A DNA stretch of 64,000 nt. Source: Microbacterium sp. GTDB lineage: Bacteria > Actinomycetota > Actinomycetes > Actinomycetales > Microbacteriaceae. Below the pieces are notes generated by a model. The model saw nothing but the letters and a program-made list of their open reading frames with translations. It ran no database searches and was not told the origin of the DNA. Positions within the stretch are counted from its first letter, which is position 1, and each line of letters begins with the position of its first letter. Location of the stretch: positions 51,739-115,738 of the forward strand of contig JAEKKN010000038.1 of NCBI GenBank assembly GCA_019510305.1, given 5' to 3'. Shown here in pieces: positions 41,130-64,000 of the stretch. Position numbers and translations under genes: made by a program.

Positions 41130-41138
41130 GCCAGCAGT

Positions 41139-41212
41139 GACACGGGGTGCCGCATCCGCGGCTGAGAACAGACCCGTCGAACCTGATCTAGTTAGCACTA
41201 GCGAAGGGAATG
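41139..41212 (+). promoter_or_regulatory. TPP riboswitch (THI element)
   Basis: The conserved blocks are in order: ACACGGGGTGCC at the 5' side, GGCTGAGAACAGACCCG (the CUGAGA sensor motif), ACCTGATCTAGTTAGCACTAG (two blocks around the ACCUGA core) and GCGAAGGGAA at the 3' stem. It lies immediately upstream of thiM with the AAGGGAA/Shine-Dalgarno in its 3' helix, so TPP should repress translation of thiM and the downstream fusion. Confidence 0.95.
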
Positions 41213-41216
41213 TCGC

Positions 41217-42065
41217 ATGAGCGATCTTCTGCGTCCTGCATCCGCCGCCGACCTCGTCACAGAGGCCGCCTCCCTTCTGGAGGTGCTGCGTGCCGACCCG
41301 CCGCTGACGCACTGCATCACGAACTCGGTCGTCACGGGCTTCACGGCGAACGTGCTGCTCGCGATCGGGGCGGCGCCCGCCATGGTGGACATCGTCGGCG
41401 AGTCCGGCCTGTTCGCGGGCATCGCCTCGGGACTTCTCGTGAACCTCGGCACGCCGACCCCCGAGCAGCGGGAGGCGAGCTTCGAAGCGGTCGAGGGAGC
41501 CACGGCATCCGGAACTCCCTGGGTCCTCGATCCGGTCGCGATCGGTGCGCTGCCGGTGCGCACCGCGCTCGCGCACCGTCTCGCCGAGCAACGCCCGACC
41601 GCGATCCGTGGCAATGCCTCGGAGATCCTCGCACTCGCCGGACTCAGCGCAGGAGGGCGCGGTGTCGATGCGACGGACAGCGCAGACGCCGCGATCGATG
41701 CGGCCCGCGCGCTCGCCTCGAGATTCGGCAGCGTCGTGGCGGTCTCCGGACCGGTCGATCTCATCACGGACGGCGAGCGCGTGCTCCGGCTCGCCAACGG
41801 GCACGAACTGCTCACCAGGGTGACCGGCGGCGGATGCGCCCTCGGCGCAGTGATGGCTGCCTTCCTCGGAGCCGCACGCGCCAGAGCCACCCCGCCGCTG
41901 CTCGCCGTGGCCTCGGCGAGCCTCGTCTACACGGTCGCTGCTGAACGCGCTGCCAGCGCGTCCACGGGGCCCGGCAGCTTCGCCGTCGCGCTTCTCGATG
42001 CGCTCGCCGCCGTGCAACCCGTCGACATCGAGTCCGCGGCTCGCGTCGAGACGGCTGCGCTGTGA
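41217..42065 (+). CDS. thiM: Hydroxyethylthiazole kinase
   Basis: Phosphorylates 4-methyl-5-(2-hydroxyethyl)thiazole in the salvage branch of thiamin synthesis. It is a ribokinase-like fold of 282 aa with [51 protein letters not shown] and the catalytic region [18 protein letters not shown], whose Cys is conserved in ThiM. It lies directly behind the TPP riboswitch and overlaps the next gene by 4 bp (GTGA). Confidence 0.95.
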
Positions 42066-46436: not shown

Positions 46437-47735
46437 GTGCGCACCGAGACGATCTGGCAGGGGCTGATGCTGCCGCCCGGCCGTTTCCTGATCTCCCGAT
46501 GGCCGTGGGCCGGACTGCTGGGCGTCGTCATCACCGCCGTGCTCGGCGTGGTGCTGGTGCTCCCTGTCGTCGCGACGATCGTGATCCTTCCGCTCTGGGG
46601 GATCCTCTTCGCGATGATCGAACGAAAGAGGCTGCGCCTGATCGGTCATCCGGCGCGCGCCAGCGGTCATGTCCGCGTGCCCAGGGAGGAGAAGCACAAC
46701 TGGCTCTGGATCCGGCTCACCGAGCCCACGACCTGGCGCGAGGTCGTCGCGCTCTCGATAGGCATCATCATGGGGCTCCTGGCCTTCGCCCTCCTCCTCG
46801 CGCAGGTCATCGCAGTGGGGCTCCCCTTCGCATTGGCGGTCACAGGCCTCACACGCCCGGGCGCAGAAGTGAATCTGTTCTCCGACGTGACGTTCGCGGT
46901 CGGCGTGGACAATTGGTGGCATCCGCTGCTCTGCGTACCGCTCATCCTCGTCGTCACGGCGTACGTCAACGCGTCGTTCACGGCTCTGCACGGCGGTGTG
47001 ATCAGCCGGCTCATCGCCCCGCGCGTCGCCGAGATCGATCGCCGTGTCGCGCAGCTCACCCGCTCGCGTGCCGCGATCGTCTCCGCCCACGAGGATGAGC
47101 GTCGGCGTATCGAGAGAGACCTGCACGACGGGGTCCAGCAAGAACTGGTCGGCATCGCCGCGCGCCTCGCGATGCTCGAGCTGGAACTCCGATCGGGAGA
47201 CGCCGATGCGTCCCGGGCCGCGCTCATCGCGGCGCAGGACCAGACCGAGCGCGCACTCGTCTCGCTCCGATCCACGGTCAGAGGGATCCACCCGACCGTG
47301 CTCGCCGACCACGGGCTCACAGAAGCGCTCCGCGAGCTCGCGGGGCGCAGCACCCTCGTGCTGCGGATTCGCGACGACGGCTTTCCTCGAATGCGGCCCG
47401 ACGCAGAGGCCGCCGGCTACTTTCTCGTCGCCGAAGCACTCACGAACGCGACGAAGCACTCGGCAGCTTCGAGGTTGACCGTCGAGCTCGGCTCCCAGAA
47501 CGATCGGGCGTACATCCGGGCCACGGACGACGGGCACGGCGGCGCCGATCCCGAGCAGGGCACCGGACTGCGCGGGCTCGCAGGTCGCGCGGAGGCGCTG
47601 GGCGGTGCGCTCACCGTGTCCAGTCCCCTCGGAGGACCGACAGTCGTCCTGATGGAACTGCCGCTGATCGGGTCAGGAGAGATCACGTACGGCGGCAAGA
47701 GAGGAGGCGCCGATGAGGATTCTCCTCGCGGATGA
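46437..47735 (+). CDS. Sensor histidine kinase (NarL/DesK-type)
   Basis: Membrane kinase of 432 aa. A putative-sensor domain with four hydrophobic segments (residues ~25-60 and ~100-185) is followed by HisKA_3 with the phosphoacceptor His in RRRIERDLHDGVQQEL. The HATPase has EALTNATKHSAA and GTGLRGLAGRAEALGG. The neighbouring ABC exporter suggests it senses an envelope-active compound, as for LiaS/VraS-like or DesK-like kinases. The 3' end overlaps the response regulator gene by 23 bp. Confidence 0.9.
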   Translation: MRTETIWQGLMLPPGRFLISRWPWAGLLGVVITAVLGVVLVLPVVATIVILPLWGILFAMIERKRLRLIGHPARASGHVRVPREEKHNWLWIRLTEPTTWREVVALSIGIIMGLLAFALLLAQVIAVGLPFALAVTGLTRPGAEVNLFSDVTFAVGVDNWWHPLLCVPLILVVTAYVNASFTALHGGVISRLIAPRVAEIDRRVAQLTRSRAAIVSAHEDERRRIERDLHDGVQQELVGIAARLAMLELELRSGDADASRAALIAAQDQTERALVSLRSTVRGIHPTVLADHGLTEALRELAGRSTLVLRIRDDGFPRMRPDAEAAGYFLVAEALTNATKHSAASRLTVELGSQNDRAYIRATDDGHGGADPEQGTGLRGLAGRAEALGGALTVSSPLGGPTVVLMELPLIGSGEITYGGKRGGADEDSPRG

Positions 47736-48369
47736 CGCGACTCTGCTGCGCGAAGCACTGTCCGCGCTCCTGGAGAGACTCGGGCACGTGATCGTCGCCA
47801 CGGCGTCCGACGCTCCGGAGCTGGAGCGCAGCTACTTCGCACTCGCCGAGCGGCCGGATCTCGTCATCACCGATGTGCGGATGCCGCCGGGAGGCGCCGA
47901 CGACGGTCTTGCAGCGGCGCTGCGGATCCGTGAGCACGCGCCGACTCAGCCGGTGCTCGTCTTGTCGCAGTATGTCGCCGAGCGCTATGCGCGCGAACTG
48001 CTCCTCCTGCCGGAGGCGGCCGTCGGATATCTGCTGAAGGAGAGAGTCAACCGGATCAGCGACTTCGATCGGGCGCTCGCCGTGGTGCGCGACGGCGGAA
48101 CGGTCATCGACCCGGAGGTGACCAGGCAGCTGTTGAGGGCAGAGGTCGCCGGCCCACTGGACGCGCTCACCGCGCGCGAACGGGAGGTCCTCGCGCTGAT
48201 GGCCGACGGCGCTTCGAACGGCGACATCGCCTCCACGCTCTTCCTCAGCGACGCCGCCGTGCGCAAGCACGTGGGCAACATCTTCAGCGGGCTCGGACTC
48301 AGCCCCGCAGCTGAGAACCGCAGGGTGCGCGCGATCCTCGTGTTCCTGGAGGCTCGCCGGGTGGGTTGA
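47713..48369 (+). CDS. Response regulator, NarL/LuxR family
   Basis: The receiver domain has D7/D8 and phosphoacceptor D54 (VITDVRMPPGG). The C-terminal LuxR-type helix-turn-helix includes LTAREREVLALMADGASNGDIASTLFLSDAAVRKHVGNIFSGLGL. The length is 218 aa. It probably controls the divergent ABC transporter. ATG 47713 lies within the end of the kinase gene, a common overlap for these pairs. Confidence 0.92.
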   Translation: MRILLADDATLLREALSALLERLGHVIVATASDAPELERSYFALAERPDLVITDVRMPPGGADDGLAAALRIREHAPTQPVLVLSQYVAERYARELLLLPEAAVGYLLKERVNRISDFDRALAVVRDGGTVIDPEVTRQLLRAEVAGPLDALTAREREVLALMADGASNGDIASTLFLSDAAVRKHVGNIFSGLGLSPAAENRRVRAILVFLEARRVG

Positions 48370-48388
48370 CGTACGTTACGCGTCTGAT

Positions 48389-48418
48389 TTGCGGATGCCG
48401 CGCCGCCCGCGCTATGGT
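48389..48418 (+). promoter_or_regulatory. Promoter of the arginine operon leader
   Basis: TTGCGG (48389-48394) and TATGGT (48413-48418) are separated by 18 bp. ATG 48425 of the leader ORF follows after only six nucleotides, so the leader peptide is predicted to be translated from a leaderless transcript. Confidence 0.5.
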
Positions 48419-48424
48419 CGCGAC

Positions 48425-48508
48425 ATGCCTTCGGCCGCCCACGCTTCTTCGACGCTCGCTCCGAGCGTCGTCGTCGTGCGCCGACGCCGCGGCGGCCGCC
48501 GACTCTAG
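48425..48508 (+). CDS. Arginine-rich leader peptide of the arg operon (27 aa)
   Basis: A short ORF with ATG 48425 and TAG 48506. It ends VVVVRRRRGGRRL, with six arginine codons among the last nine. It starts six nucleotides after a TATGGT -10 box and stops 91 bp before argC. Position, size and codon content are those of a ribosome-mediated attenuator sensing charged tRNA-Arg. GC-rich complementary segments (for example GGCGAC at 48508-48513 and GTCGCC downstream) allow alternative RNA folds, but I see no U-run terminator, so control could be translational or Rho-dependent. No homologue can be checked here; chance occurrence in GC-rich DNA is the alternative. Confidence 0.5.
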   Translation: MPSAAHASSTLAPSVVVVRRRRGGRRL

Positions 48509-48599
48509 GCGACCCCGCGCTCCTGCCTGCGTACGCACGGCGGTCGAGTGCCGGTGTCGCCGCTCCGGCCCCAGACCCTCCCAGCGTTAAGGTAGAAGC

Positions 48600-49673
48600 A
48601 TGACGTACACGGTCGCCGTTTCCGGCGCATCCGGCTATGCGGGTGGCGAGATCCTCCGTCTCCTGGCCGCACATCCCGACATCGAGATCCGCACCGTCAC
48701 GGCGCACTCGAACGCCGGCCAGCCGCTGATCCAGCACCAGCCGCACCTGCGCTCTCTCGCGCACCTCACCCTGCAGGACACGACGCCAGAGGTCCTCGCC
48801 GGGCATGACATCGTGTTCCTCGCGCTGCCGCACGGGCAATCCGGCCAGTACACCGATGCCCTCGGCGCGGTCCCGCTGGTGATCGACGCGGGCGCCGACC
48901 ACCGGCTCACCTCGAAGGACTCCTGGGACTCCTTCTACGGCGGGGAATTCCACGAGCCGTGGGCGTACGGAGTTCCGGAACTTCCCGTGAACGGGACGAA
49001 GCAGCGCGAGAACCTCGTGGGAGCGACGCGCATCGCGGCTCCCGGGTGCAACGCCTCGACGGTGAGCCTCAGTCTCGCCCCCGGCGTCGCCTCCGGCGTG
49101 ATCGATCCTGGTGACATCGTCTCGGTTCTCGCGGTGGGGCCCTCCGGCGCGGGCAAGAGCCTGAAGACGAACCTCCTCGGCAGTGAGATCCTCGGCACGG
49201 CGAATCCGTACGCGGTGGGCGGCACGCACCGCCACATCCCCGAGATCCGGCAGGCGCTCGCCGCGGCGTCAGGCCCTTCGACAGGCTCAGGGACCCGGAT
49301 CGAGCGGAGCATCCGCATCTCCTTCACCCCGGTACTCGTGCCGATGTCGCGGGGCATCCTCGCCACCTCGACGGCGCCGATCGTCGAGGGCGTCACCGAT
49401 GCGCAGATCCGCGAGGCGTGGGAGAGCGCGTACGCCGGAGAGACCTTCGTGCAGTTGCTCCCCGAGGGCCAGTTCCCGCGCACCGCCGACGTACTCGGCG
49501 CGAACACGGCGCTCATCGGTCTTGCGATCGACCGTGCCGCGAACCGTGTCACGGTCGTCACCGCGGTCGACAACCTCGTCAAGGGCACCGCCGGTGCCGC
49601 CATCCAATCCATGAACATCGCGCTCGGCCTACCCGAAGACCGCGCGCTCTCCGTGAACGGAGTCGCACCGTGA
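48600..49673 (+). CDS. argC: N-acetyl-gamma-glutamyl-phosphate reductase
   Basis: NADPH-dependent reduction of N-acetylglutamyl phosphate. It has the nucleotide-binding [20 protein letters not shown], the catalytic Cys in [19 protein letters not shown], and the end [20 protein letters not shown]. An unusual insert [11 protein letters not shown] at about residues 225-235 is encoded by a dispersed DNA repeat. It falls in a loop before [14 protein letters not shown], where other ArgC proteins have a short turn. AAGGTAGAAG precedes the ATG. First enzyme gene of the argCJBDFH operon. Confidence 0.96.
49274..49295. repeat. Dispersed repeat inserted in frame within argC
   Basis: The 22-bp element starts CCCTTCGACAGGCTCAGG and ends GGGACC. 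It encodes PSTGSGT in the argC frame. Near-identical sequence (20 of 21 shared bases) is at 14590-14610, and a diverged copy at 21403-21424. Confidence 0.65.
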
Positions 49674-50827
49674 GTGTCACCGCCCCTGCAGGATTCGAGG
49701 CGGCCGGTGTCGCCGCCGGTCTCAAAACCACAGGCAAACCCGATGTCGCGGTCGTGGTGAACCGGGGCCCGCGCAAGGTCGGTGCCGCCGTCTTCACGAG
49801 CAACCGTGCCAAGGCCAACCCGATCATCTGGTCGCAGCAGGCCGTCGCCGACCGTGTGGTCGAGGCCGTCGTGCTGAACTCCGGGGGAGCGAACTGCTTC
49901 ACCGGCGCCTTCGGGTTCCAGACCACGCACCAGACCGCCGAAAAGGCCGCTGAACTGCTCGGCATCAGCGCCGGCGACGTGCTCGTCTGCTCGACGGGGC
50001 TCATCGGCGTCGGCGATGAGATCTTCCGCGCCAAGGTCCTCACCGGCACGGAGCAGGCGATCGCCGAGCTCTCGTCCGACGGAGGCGAGAGCGCAGCACA
50101 GGCGATCATGACCACCGACACCGTCGCGAAGACCGCGGTGGTCAGCCGCGACGGCTGGACGATCGGCGGCATGGCGAAGGGAGCAGGCATGCTCGCCCCC
50201 GGGCTCGCGACCATGCTCGTCGTCATCACGACGGATGCCGTGCTCGAGCCGCTCGAGGCCGACTCCGCCCTCCGCACGGCCACTGGGCAGACATTCGACC
50301 GCCTCGACTCGGACGGCTGCATGTCGACGAACGATCAGGTCACCCTGCTCGCCAACGGGGCGTCCGGGGTCGTTCCCGACCTCGACGACTTCGCCGCCGC
50401 GCTCTCTCAGCTGTGTCAGGAGCTCGCCGTCAAACTGCAGGGCGACGCCGAAGGGGCGAGCCACGACATCACGATCGAGGTGCAGCACGCCGCCTCCGAG
50501 CAGGAGGCCGTCGAGGTCGGCCGCTCGGTCGCCCGCAACAACCTCTTCAAAGCAGCGATCTTCGGCAACGACCCGAACTGGGGTCGTGTCCTCGCGGCGA
50601 TCGGCACGACCGCCGCGCAGTTCGATCCCTACGACGTGGACGTGTGGATGAACGGCGTCCGCGTCTGCAGCGAAGGCGGCCCCGACCGTCCGCGCGAAGA
50701 GGTCGATCTGACGCCGCGGGCGACTCACCTGGTCATCGATCTCAAGGTCGGCGAGGCCACGGCATCCATCCTCACCAACGACCTCACCCACGACTACGTG
50801 CACGAGAACAGCGCGTACGCATCATGA
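49670..50827 (+). CDS. argJ: Ornithine acetyltransferase / N-acetylglutamate synthase
   Basis: Recycles the acetyl group from N-acetylornithine to glutamate, giving the cyclic arginine pathway. The protein of 385 aa self-cleaves before the nucleophile Thr in [46 protein letters not shown] and [14 protein letters not shown] are all conserved. GTG 49670 overlaps the argC stop and was chosen over an ATG deep in argC. Confidence 0.96.
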
Positions 50828-51741
50828 CCGACATCCAGGACACACCGGCCGAGATCGCCGCAGTCAAGGCCGAGACGCTCATCGAGTCGCTGCCGTGGCT
50901 CAAGAAGTTCCGTGATCAGATCGTCGTCGTCAAGTACGGCGGCAACGCGATGGTCTCGGACGAGCTGCAGGAGGCGTTCGCCCAGGACATCGCCTACCTG
51001 CGGTACGTGGGAGTGCAGCCCGTCGTCGTGCACGGCGGAGGCCCGCAGATCTCCGACATGCTGGGACGCCTCGACATCCCCAGCGAGTTCAAGGGCGGCT
51101 ACCGCGTCACCACGACCGAGGCGATCAGCGTCGTCCGCATGGTGCTCACGGGGCAGGTCAATCCGCAGCTCGTGTCGAAGATCAACTCGCACGGCCCGAT
51201 CGCGACCGGTCTGAGCGGAGAGGACGCCGGTCTGTTCGGTGGCCGCCGTCGTGGCGTCGTCATCGAAGGGGAAGAGGTCGATCTCGGGCGCGTCGGCGAT
51301 GTGGTCGAGGTCGACCCCACCGCCGTGTTCGATCATCTGGCCGCAGGGAGGGTTCCGGTGATCTCCTCGATCGCGCCGGATCTCGACCACCCCGGCCAGT
51401 CGCTCAACGTGAACGCGGATGCCGCGGCTGCGGCCCTCGCGGTGGCACTCGGCGCCCGCAAGCTGGTCATCCTGACGGACGTACCCGGGCTCTACGCGGA
51501 CTGGCCGAATCGCGACTCGCTCGTCTCGCACCTCACGGCGGAGGCCCTCATCGAGATGCTCCCGAGCCTGGAGTCCGGCATGATCCCGAAGATGCGAGCC
51601 TGCCTCGACGCTGTCGAGGGCGGCGTCGACGCCGCGGCGATCATCGACGGACGCGTGCCGCACTCGGTGCTCGTCGAGCTCTTCACCAGCAAGGGAATCG
51701 GAACAGAAGTGGTCTTGGAAAGCGCAGGGACGAAAGCATGA
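50824..51741 (+). CDS. argB: Acetylglutamate kinase
   Basis: Phosphorylates N-acetylglutamate and is usually the arginine-inhibited step. It is an amino acid kinase fold of 305 aa with [25 protein letters not shown]-like [17 protein letters not shown] and ILTDVPGLY. The N-terminal helix (about 20 residues before VVVKYGG) is the feature that forms hexamers in arginine-sensitive enzymes, so feedback inhibition is likely. It overlaps argJ and argD by 4 bp each. Confidence 0.96.
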
Positions 51742-52945
51742 GCAATTGGCAGGATGACGCAGCGAGCCATCTGGTCCTCAACGCAGGGCCCCGCCTGGCG
51801 ATGCTCACACGAGGCGAGGGTTCGTACGTGTGGGATGCAGACGGCAACCGCCTTCTCGACTTCCTCGCCGGCATCGCCGTGACCTCGCTCGGCCACGCGC
51901 ACCCGGTGTTCGTCGAGGCCGTCTCGCGGCAGGCCGCGACGCTCGCGCACGTGTCGAACTACTTCGCCACGCCGCCGCAGCTCGCGCTCGCCGCTCGTCT
52001 CAAGCGTCTCGCCGGCGCCGGCATCGACGGGCGGGTGTTCTTCTCGAACTCGGGCGCTGAGGCCAACGAGGCCGCGTTCAAGCTCGCCCGTCTGCACGGC
52101 GGCGCCGAGAAGCCGCGCATCATCGCACTCGAGAACGGCTTCCACGGCCGCACCATGGGCTCCCTCGCCATGACCGCGAAGGCGTCGATGCGAGCGCCGT
52201 TCGAGCCGATGCCCGGAGGAGTCGAGCACATCCCGGCGACCATCGAGGCGCTCGAGGCCGCGATCGACGATCGCGTCGCCGCCGTCATCGTCGAGCCGAT
52301 CCAGGGCGAAGCCGGAGTGGTCGAGCTTCCAGAGGGCTACCTCGCCGCGGCGCGGTCGCTCACCCTGAAGCACGGCGCGCTCCTCATCGTCGACGAGATC
52401 CAGACGGGCGCCGGTCGCACCGGGGCGTGGTTCGGCTTCTCCCACGAGGGCATCACACCCGACGCGATCACCCTCGCCAAGGGCATCGGCGGAGGCTTCC
52501 CGATCGGCGCCCTCGTCACCTACGGCGCGGCGAGCGACCTGTTCACACCGGGCTCGCACGGCTCGACGTTCGGCGGCAACCCGCTGGCGACGGCCGTGGC
52601 GGACGCCGTGCTCGCCGAGATCGAGAACGCAGGACTCGTCGAGAACGCCGCGCGCCGCGGCGAAGAACTGCGCGGGATCATCGAAGGCATCGACTCGCCG
52701 CTGATCGACGGCGTCCGAGGCCGCGGACTTCTCATCGGCGTCGGTCTCGCAGCTCCGGTCGCGGGGGCTGTCGTGGCCGCCGCCCAGGAGCGGGGTCTCA
52801 TCGTCAACGCCGCCAACCCCGAGACCGTGCGCATCGCGCCGGCCCTCACGATCGGCGACGCCGAGCTCGCCGAGTTCCGCGAGCTGTTCGCCGCCGCGCT
52901 CGCCGACGTGTCGGCATCTCTCACCACTTCCGGAAAGGCCCCCGC

Positions 52946-52949
<4 letters not shown>
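51738..52949 (+). CDS. argD: Acetylornithine aminotransferase
   Basis: PLP class III aminotransferase (403 aa). It has [18 protein letters not shown], the [16 protein letters not shown] segment, the [13 protein letters not shown] Asp region and the PLP lysine in [15 protein letters not shown]. It converts N-acetylglutamate semialdehyde to N-acetylornithine. It is coupled to argB and argF by 4-bp overlaps. Confidence 0.96.

Positions 52950-55311
<2,362 letters not shown>

Positions 55312-63928: not shown

Positions 63929-64000
<72 letters not shown>

Follow-up and report, generated by a model that had tools for sequence, protein, structure and literature searches.

A candidate leaderless arginine-codon attenuator with a predicted stop-codon hairpin upstream of argCJBDFH in Microbacterium and related genera

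The DNA considered here is a stretch of 64,000 nucleotides (the window) from Microbacterium sp. (assembly GCA_019510305.1, contig JAEKKN010000038.1, positions 51,739 to 115,738 of the forward strand), and its subject is a short arginine-rich open reading frame (ORF) in front of the arginine biosynthesis operon argCJBDFH. The nearest argC loci are up to 89% identical to that of the window, and the genome is that of a Microbacterium relative. In the following, 'Microbacterium type' (n = 81) denotes the window together with the 80 nearest argC loci, the best 80 of 459 relatives, of which 72 are titled Microbacterium and eight are other actinobacterial bins or strains. The features of the locus are listed below, all on the plus strand, with nucleotides abbreviated as nt and the Shine-Dalgarno element as SD.

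48389-48394 (+): TTGCGG, -35-like element of the leader promoter; read directly, its spacing kept in Microbacterium-type leaders
48413-48418 (+): TATGGT, -10-like element 6 nt upstream of the leader ATG; read directly, its spacing kept among leaders
48425-48508 (+): leader ORF, 27 codons and TAG, MPSAAHASSTLAPSVVVVRRRRGGRRL; read directly, absent from 657 control upstream regions, frame kept
48479-48490 (+): four clustered Arg codons, the putative sensor, at -29 to -20 nt from the hairpin base; Arg conserved, third base variable
48497-48502 (+): CGC CGA, two Arg codons forming 'region 1', pairable with region 2; in 80/80 Microbacterium-type leaders
48508-48561 (+): predicted hairpin of region 2 and region 3, arms GGCGAC (48508-48513) and GTCGCC (48556-48561), extended inward; -34.9 kcal/mol
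48562-48588 (+): C-rich, G-poor spacer, candidate Rho-loading stretch; C exceeds G in all 128 loci compared
48589-48592 (+): AAGG, SD-like element of argC within TAAGGT; kept in 81/81 Microbacterium-type loci
48600-49673 (+): argC (TIGR01850, 324 bits, cut-off 233.6)
49670-50827 (+): argJ (NF003802, 421 bits, cut-off 351)
50824-51741 (+): argB (TIGR00761, 234 bits, cut-off 151.3)
51738-52949 (+): argD (NF002874, 544 bits, cut-off 457)
52946-53881 (+): argF (TIGR00658, 365 bits, cut-off 280.85)
53881-55311 (+): argH (TIGR00838, 564 bits, cut-off 279.5), overlapping argF by one base (TGATG)

The operon is complete and closely packed, with all six genes above their NCBIfam cut-offs. Neither argR nor argG can fit between argF and argH, as a preliminary description of this DNA had already read from the overlap; argG of the same genome lies on a different contig. 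No arginine leader was seen by eye ahead of argG or carA in this genome, where argG has a leaderless-type start of its own and carA apparently follows closely behind another gene. The same description had pointed out the 27-codon ORF, and direct reading bears out its particulars. The promoter region reads TTGCGG, 18 nt, TATGGT, CGCGAC and the leader ATG at 48425; the TAG occupies 48506-48508 and is followed by 91 nt and the argC ATG at 48600. The leader ends in RRRRGGRRL, with six Arg among its final nine residues, and thus has the appearance known from attenuators, a short ORF that precedes an operon and has, close to its stop, several codons for the end product.

Conservation was assessed with a strict detector that asks for a start codon 5-8 nt after TAnnnT, 14-60 amino acids, at least four Arg in the final 14 residues and an end 30-160 nt before the gene. 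It was applied to the Microbacterium type and to 89 argC loci from other genera of what we infer to be the family Microbacteriaceae, after one duplicate (L164) was dropped; of these, L081-L110 are top-scoring argC matches rather than a random sample and L111-L170 were hand-picked, mostly one per genus. The conservation that had been suggested as a check is found: the leader is kept in 80 of the 81 close loci and in 41 of the 89 more distant ones, or 48 once seven hand-picked near misses are added. In the sole close locus without it (L027), a metagenome bin, other DNA occupies the place of the leader. Dinucleotide shuffles yielded 5/1620 and 3/1780 hits (8/3400), and the upstream regions of other long frames in Microbacterium-type loci 0/657, although many of these mechanically chosen frames are homologous to each other. 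The arginine-rich leader before argC is therefore beyond chance.

The spacing around the start is equally regular. Of the 80 Microbacterium-type leaders, 76 have TTGnnn 18 nt before TAnnnT, one has it at 17 nt and three lack it; the distance from TAnnnT to the start codon is 6 nt in 108, 7 in 12 and 8 in one of 121 leaders, within the 5-8 nt that the detector itself demands. A consensus-scan rule for sigma-70-type promoters found none at the leader, and the promoter assignment rests on this conservation and not on a consensus score. The position of TATGGT 6 nt before the ATG implies a leaderless start.

Reading frame and folding were counted in 128 loci, 80 of the Microbacterium type and 48 others, 121 of which had been picked by the detector and so by its demand for an in-frame arginine run. 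With anchors chosen by folding, 122 of 127 candidate starts (TAnnnT, six or seven nt, ATG or GTG) are in frame, and two of the 128 loci have no candidate. A sequence-only anchor (CGA, 2-6 nt, GGCG) was applied to all 170 loci; 30 have no anchor and 14 no candidate, and in 114 of the other 126 TAnnnT-N6/7-RTG is in frame (70/80 in the Microbacterium type, 37/39 in other detector-picked loci and 7/7 in those that were not detector-picked), at start-to-anchor distances from 56 to 131 nt. This persistence of frame bears on the view that the ORF is idle or encodes a leaderless small protein, its conserved part being just an RNA or DNA element without an arginine response. The N-terminal part is indeed unconserved, and 41 to 48 of the 89 other loci manage without a leader; however, the frame is kept at many distances, arginine is conserved with free third bases, none of the 657 controls has such an ORF, and its presence coincides with the absence of ArgR and ARG boxes. 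We consider this view very unlikely.

In the N-terminal part of the 27-codon leaders, before the last ten codons, the three codon positions vary about equally (0.386, 0.323, 0.359), so that the peptide itself is not conserved; leader length in the Microbacterium type ranges from 22 to 43 amino acids. In one locus (L058, M. stercoris) the conserved TAG is lost and the leader continues into the hairpin with a new tail. Ribosomes are slowed by Arg-rich nascent chains and stall at +X+ motifs in the presence of macrolides; arrest peptides require conserved nascent-chain residues. Arrest leaders do exist (PMC11550727, PMC8632094), and a nascent chain that senses an antibiotic or free arginine, comparable to the fungal AAP, SpeFL or erm-type RLR leaders, could be envisaged here too. 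With the variable N-terminus and length, with no conserved residues other than those of the arginine codons, and with a preference for a subset of these codons, such an arrest peptide is hardly credible.

The arginine codons themselves occupy fixed places relative to the hairpin base. Their number is partly imposed by the detector, their positions are not. Arginine is common from -29 to -17. Of the 80 Microbacterium-type leaders, 62, 73 and 74 carry it at -29, -26 and -23, respectively, and all carry it at both -11 and -8; in the other genera it is found at -29 in 30/41, at -11 in 30/41 and at -8 in 41/41. The -8 codon is thus Arg in 121/121 leaders. As a separate observation, the -14 codon is never Arg (0/121) and begins with G in 108/121. 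The two parts of this pattern differ in the freedom of their third bases. From -29 to -23, codon positions one and two are largely conserved and the third base is free (at -23: T in 37, C in 33, A in 9, G in 1), whereas CGC CGA at -11/-8 is invariant base for base in 80/80 Microbacterium-type leaders, and in the other genera the third base at -8 is A in 40/41. The comparison indicates selection at the codon level for the upstream cluster and at the nucleotide level for the last pair. The third-position variation that the preliminary description had expected of a sensor accordingly holds at its three best-conserved codons, but not in the N-terminal part. Across both groups the final Arg codon is CGA in 120/121 leaders and, in the Microbacterium type, always follows CGC. 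The idea that this CGA results from pairing of region 1 with region 2 alone was rejected for TAG-type leaders, as it is kept although the pair column 8:14 fails in 30/39.

Codon choice is narrow as well. CGC, CGA and CGT make up 486/497 arginine codons in Microbacterium-type leaders and 287/313 in the others (CGG 26). In 28 long frames of the window, also chosen mechanically, the three account for 70%, with CGG at 19%, AGG and AGA together at 10% and CGA at 13%. CGC, CGA and CGT are read by one tRNA. The theory of selective charging holds that leaders should favour the codons most sensitive to starvation (PMC1183508). We regard the Arg-codon leader as very probably the arginine sensor of the operon.

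The absence of argR, noted in the preliminary description for the operon, extends to the genome and to the family. In the genome itself (99.97% complete) neither the N-terminal nor the C-terminal domain of ArgR was found, and PF01316 was found in 0/199 genomes of Microbacteriaceae, and in 0/179 of the good ones. Within the order, 224 of 248 genomes have ArgR, and all 18 family members are among the 24 without; outside the family the count is 224/230. The six exceptions (G249 and G346, and by elimination G372, G396, G409 and G419) comprise three genomes of roughly 1 Mb and, from a single other family, three fragmented assemblies. The binding sites follow the same distribution. With what we take to be the ARG half-site pattern, at least two half-sites occur in the last 120 nt of 27/30 outgroup argC upstreams (L171-L200, top-scoring rather than random), none of which has the leader (0/30), and in 0/81 Microbacterium-type, 0/48 leader-bearing other and 1/41 leader-less other loci. 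Neither an argR gene nor ARG boxes were thus found for this operon, and the alternative of an argR elsewhere with ARG boxes upstream of argC, raised earlier, was not borne out. In 26/41 leader-less loci of the family, compared with 1/48 with leader, TAnnnT without SD precedes argC, a leaderless arrangement of argC itself; in L116, L121, L123, L127, L128, L163 and others, TAGATT or a similar box precedes the argC ATG by about 6 nt, and several show, just upstream of argC, what we take by eye to be the end of pheT.

The preliminary description recognized the ORF as a leader but overlooked a conserved predicted hairpin directly after its coding part, which we add here. The first base of this predicted hairpin is the G of the UAG stop codon. 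The folding z-score is -3.1 for 48507-48570 and only -1.7 for the longer 48507-48599; it averages -3.39 in the 80 Microbacterium-type and -3.53 in the 48 other loci, with 71 and 42 below -2. One alignment, of 46 distinct among 48 two-arm rows from other genera (five with hand-corrected anchors, seven near misses), has 81.5% of its cells paired and at most 65.2% when the arms are slid; its 3' arm is the folding partner or a hand choice, so the percentage is partly given by construction. Covariation is 0.234 in this alignment compared with 0.130 in shuffles (0/500 shuffles), and 8/12 pairs have changed on both sides. A pair-run test avoids the bias of arm choice, as it fixes region 2 by sequence and frame and takes the longest pair run into the spacer. 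Runs of at least six consecutive pairs are found in 80/80 and 33/41 loci (39% and 49% with shuffled spacers), and runs of at least eight in 7 and 15 loci (3% and 11%). In a second alignment 93.3% of the cells of the inner eight pairs are paired, a favourable figure given that only 39 of 51 contiguous segments were kept, the other 12, including L103 and L145, having been dropped for overlong loops, misplaced anchors or weak pairing, and that the 51 segments left out ten named loci beforehand and held only 12 of the 80 Microbacterium-type loci.

A covariance model built on the element (R1) scores 60.5 bits at the argC leader in its own genome, where the next match has 32.6. Among the 248 genomes of the order it finds 14 of the 18 Microbacteriaceae (best matches of 41.6 bits or more) and, outside the family, 14 of 230 genomes, none above 39.2 bits. 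Eight weak matches were read by eye, three in the own genome and five outside the family; all lie inside long open frames. No Rfam 15 family exceeds its gathering score in the leader stretch of the window, the best matches at 48300-48700 reaching 18 and 16.9 bits against cut-offs of 49 and 40, and a known Rfam element was rejected as the identity of the hairpin.

What follows the hairpin bears on the output. The preliminary description saw no clear U-run terminator, and the comparison agrees: there is no TTTT between hairpin and argC in 128/128 loci and no terminator-like site in the leader stretch of the window, so that the classical, intrinsic-terminator subtype of attenuator was rejected. 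A hairpin of region 3 with a further region 4 was likewise rejected as a general output, since GCCG-loop-CGGY is present in 56/80 Microbacterium-type but only 6/48 other loci, and its stability is no better than that of shuffles (mean z -0.64 and -0.03, respectively). The stretch from hairpin to SD contains 46% C and 24% G. In a fixed 46-nt segment, C minus G is 0.143 for Microbacterium-type argC and 0.158 in the 41 other loci with leader, compared with -0.006 in 48 loci without leader and 0.008 in 374 control upstreams. A rho gene is present in the genome, and together with the C-rich, G-poor spacer this favours Rho, whose blocking by the hairpin when arginine is short we propose only tentatively as the output.

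The absence of a U-run also bears on a model with the same sensor and the opposite logic, in which the hairpin would itself block expression, as a U-less terminator or a barrier, and a ribosome delayed at CGC CGA would keep it from forming by covering region 2, so that starvation again turns the genes on. CGA is slowly read; whether actinobacteria terminate at U-less hairpins is disputed. All 80 Microbacterium-type leaders have CGC CGA, 11 and 8 nt before the hairpin and inside the ribosome footprint; CGA makes up 13% of arginine codons in the long frames of the window, and the predicted hairpin is highly stable at -34.9 kcal/mol. On the other side stand the 128/128 loci without U-run and the upstream cluster, which is the codon-selected part, is reached first and on which a stalled ribosome would leave region 2 free. 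We therefore hold the reversed logic to be rather improbable.

The ribosome might also act on translation, its position altering access to the argC start as in the mycobacterial leaderless poly-cysteine ORFs. In the loci with leader argC looks SD-dependent: an SD-like motif precedes it in 81/81 Microbacterium-type and 47/48 other leader-bearing loci, against 13/41 leader-less ones. Within this motif, TAAGGT (48588-48593) is at the same time a -10-like TAnnnT, also in 81/81 Microbacterium-type loci. Folding with region 2 free raises accessibility from SD to start by more than 0.1 in 18 of 128 loci and lowers it in 6, and region 3, when freed by covering of region 2, pairs 19% with the first 45 nt of argC (29% in other genera). 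The mycobacterial Cys system is moreover described as acting on downstream translation (PMC9031893). However, averaged over the 128 loci, accessibility is much the same whether region 2 is free (0.555) or covered (0.537; Wilcoxon p 0.17), and region 3 pairs with the stretch from SD to start only 2%. Masking of the SD was rejected on these values, and translational attenuation as a whole appears unlikely.

Taken together, the leader, its frame, the sensor cluster, the predicted hairpin and the absence of ArgR and ARG boxes are supported by the sequence comparisons, and the element should work as a ribosome-mediated attenuator, albeit one in which the classical terminator was not found. In the reading we favour, RNA polymerase would initiate on the first base of the leader ATG, and the leader would then be translated by a ribosome. 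When Arg-tRNA is scarce, the ribosome would stall on the arginine cluster 29-17 nt before the hairpin. The ribosome covers about 13-15 nt ahead, so that a stall with the A site at -29 to -17 would leave region 2 (GGCGAC) unoccupied and, at the nearer codons, would cover part of region 1 (CGC CGA). Free region 2 would then pair with region 3 (GTCGCC), and the hairpin would permit transcription of argCJBDFH. With plentiful arginine, the ribosome would proceed to the UAG and cover region 2; region 3 and the C-rich spacer would be single-stranded, and Rho could terminate before argC. The leaderless start, the stalling and the direction of the response (genes on during starvation) are what we infer for this scheme, in which a leaderless Arg-codon attenuator with the full hairpin logic probably stands in place of ArgR.

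Several observations weigh against this scheme. The inner eight pairs of the hairpin are nearly invariant and their covariation is not above that of shuffles (124/500), and the covariation support is confined to outer pairs of the first alignment, where the 3' arm is a folding partner or a manual choice. Pairing of region 1 with region 2 is possible in 80.8% of cells and has no covariation. The role of region 1 is doubtful in any case: given the footprint above, it would lie beyond the reach of a ribosome held at the first sensor codons (-29 and -26), and for this reason the full hairpin logic is rated no higher than probable. CGC CGA is placed where a stalled ribosome would cover region 2, and the model has no need for it. 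In the sequence-only frame test 12 of 126 loci are out of frame, and the codon-position comparison found no purifying or coding selection on the leader N-terminus. The element is absent from 41 of the 89 other loci (48 by the strict detector) in a family in which ArgR was not found either, and hence seems dispensable. TAAGGT may be the -10 box of a second promoter before argC, and pairing of region 3 with early argC codons could also affect translation.

The element resembles known systems only in part. Leaderless poly-cysteine ORFs reportedly lie before mycobacterial cys genes (said to be the work of Canestrari et al. 2020), and to our knowledge no Arg-codon attenuator of a bacterial arginine-biosynthesis operon is known. 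T-boxes, unlike the Microbacterium leader, bind tRNA directly. The arginine T-boxes of other bacteria likewise sense arginine charging before arginine genes (PMC1262725), and no Rfam match was found here. The mycobacterial poly-cysteine ORFs attenuate their operons (PMC9031893), and actinobacterial cysteine leaders were predicted to do without an intrinsic terminator (PMC1262725). With the poly-cysteine ORFs the Microbacterium leader shares a short, here putatively leaderless, actinobacterial ORF, a run of end-product codons near the stop and the lack of an obvious terminator; it differs in its amino acid, arginine, in the conserved predicted hairpin that starts at the stop codon, in the absent classical repressor and in folding that speaks against SD masking. 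With the trp and ilvB attenuators (for ilvB1 of Mycobacterium tuberculosis, PMC13236596) it has in common the cognate leader codons and, as proposed here, a downstream pairing set by the position of the ribosome; unlike them it has no intrinsic terminator, no general region-4 hairpin and a putatively leaderless start, and it uses arginine.

Two further ORFs read arginine codons for other purposes. In Salmonella orf34-speF (PMC6386406), Arg codons in an upstream ORF, ribosome-switched RNA structures and Rho-dependent termination (both of them candidates in our case) recur, but the target is ornithine decarboxylase, stalling at low arginine lowers expression, and the ORF has two Arg codons and starts at nucleotide 32, so it is not leaderless. 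The upstream ORF rbfL of Staphylococcus aureus (PMC13009471) also senses arginine through slow Arg codons, but with two rare ones and with the opposite sign and another target, as it blocks the ribosome-binding site of a biofilm regulator and thereby represses it when arginine is limiting. Control of argC by ArgR and ARG boxes concerns the same operon and the same signal, and neither component was found here. A 2005 survey of actinobacterial leaders that included Leifsonia xyli reports no conserved RNA structures before arginine operons (PMC1262725). Of the matches listed by a search of open-licence full texts, which does not cover subscription papers, none described an arginine leader at argC or the loss of ArgR from Microbacteriaceae.

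More tentatively still, we suggest the following history. The family would have lost ArgR, and many of its genera would have rebuilt the control of argC as a leaderless leader tuned to one tRNA isoacceptor; a ribosome stalled on it would release an anti-Rho hairpin, starting at the stop codon, that masks the Rho-loading site, with no intrinsic terminator or dedicated regulatory protein involved. If true, a transcription-factor regulon has been replaced by ribosome-sensing RNA within one family, and the sister families that keep ArgR can serve as controls. It would also make leaderless leaders without intrinsic terminator testable, a question left by the predicted actinobacterial cys leaders, and the free third bases in the sensor, together with the avoided CGG and AGR codons, would offer a direct handle on selective tRNA charging.

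Other features of the window are unrelated to this element. Directly 5' of the leader, at 46437-48369, lie genes for a histidine kinase and a response regulator, whose nearest models, MctS and MadR, score below their curated cut-offs. A thiamine pyrophosphate (TPP) riboswitch is found at 41133-41227 (71 bits) and a tRNA gene on the minus strand at 1247-1328, and the window ends with the first 72 bases of a 16S rRNA gene (63929-64000).

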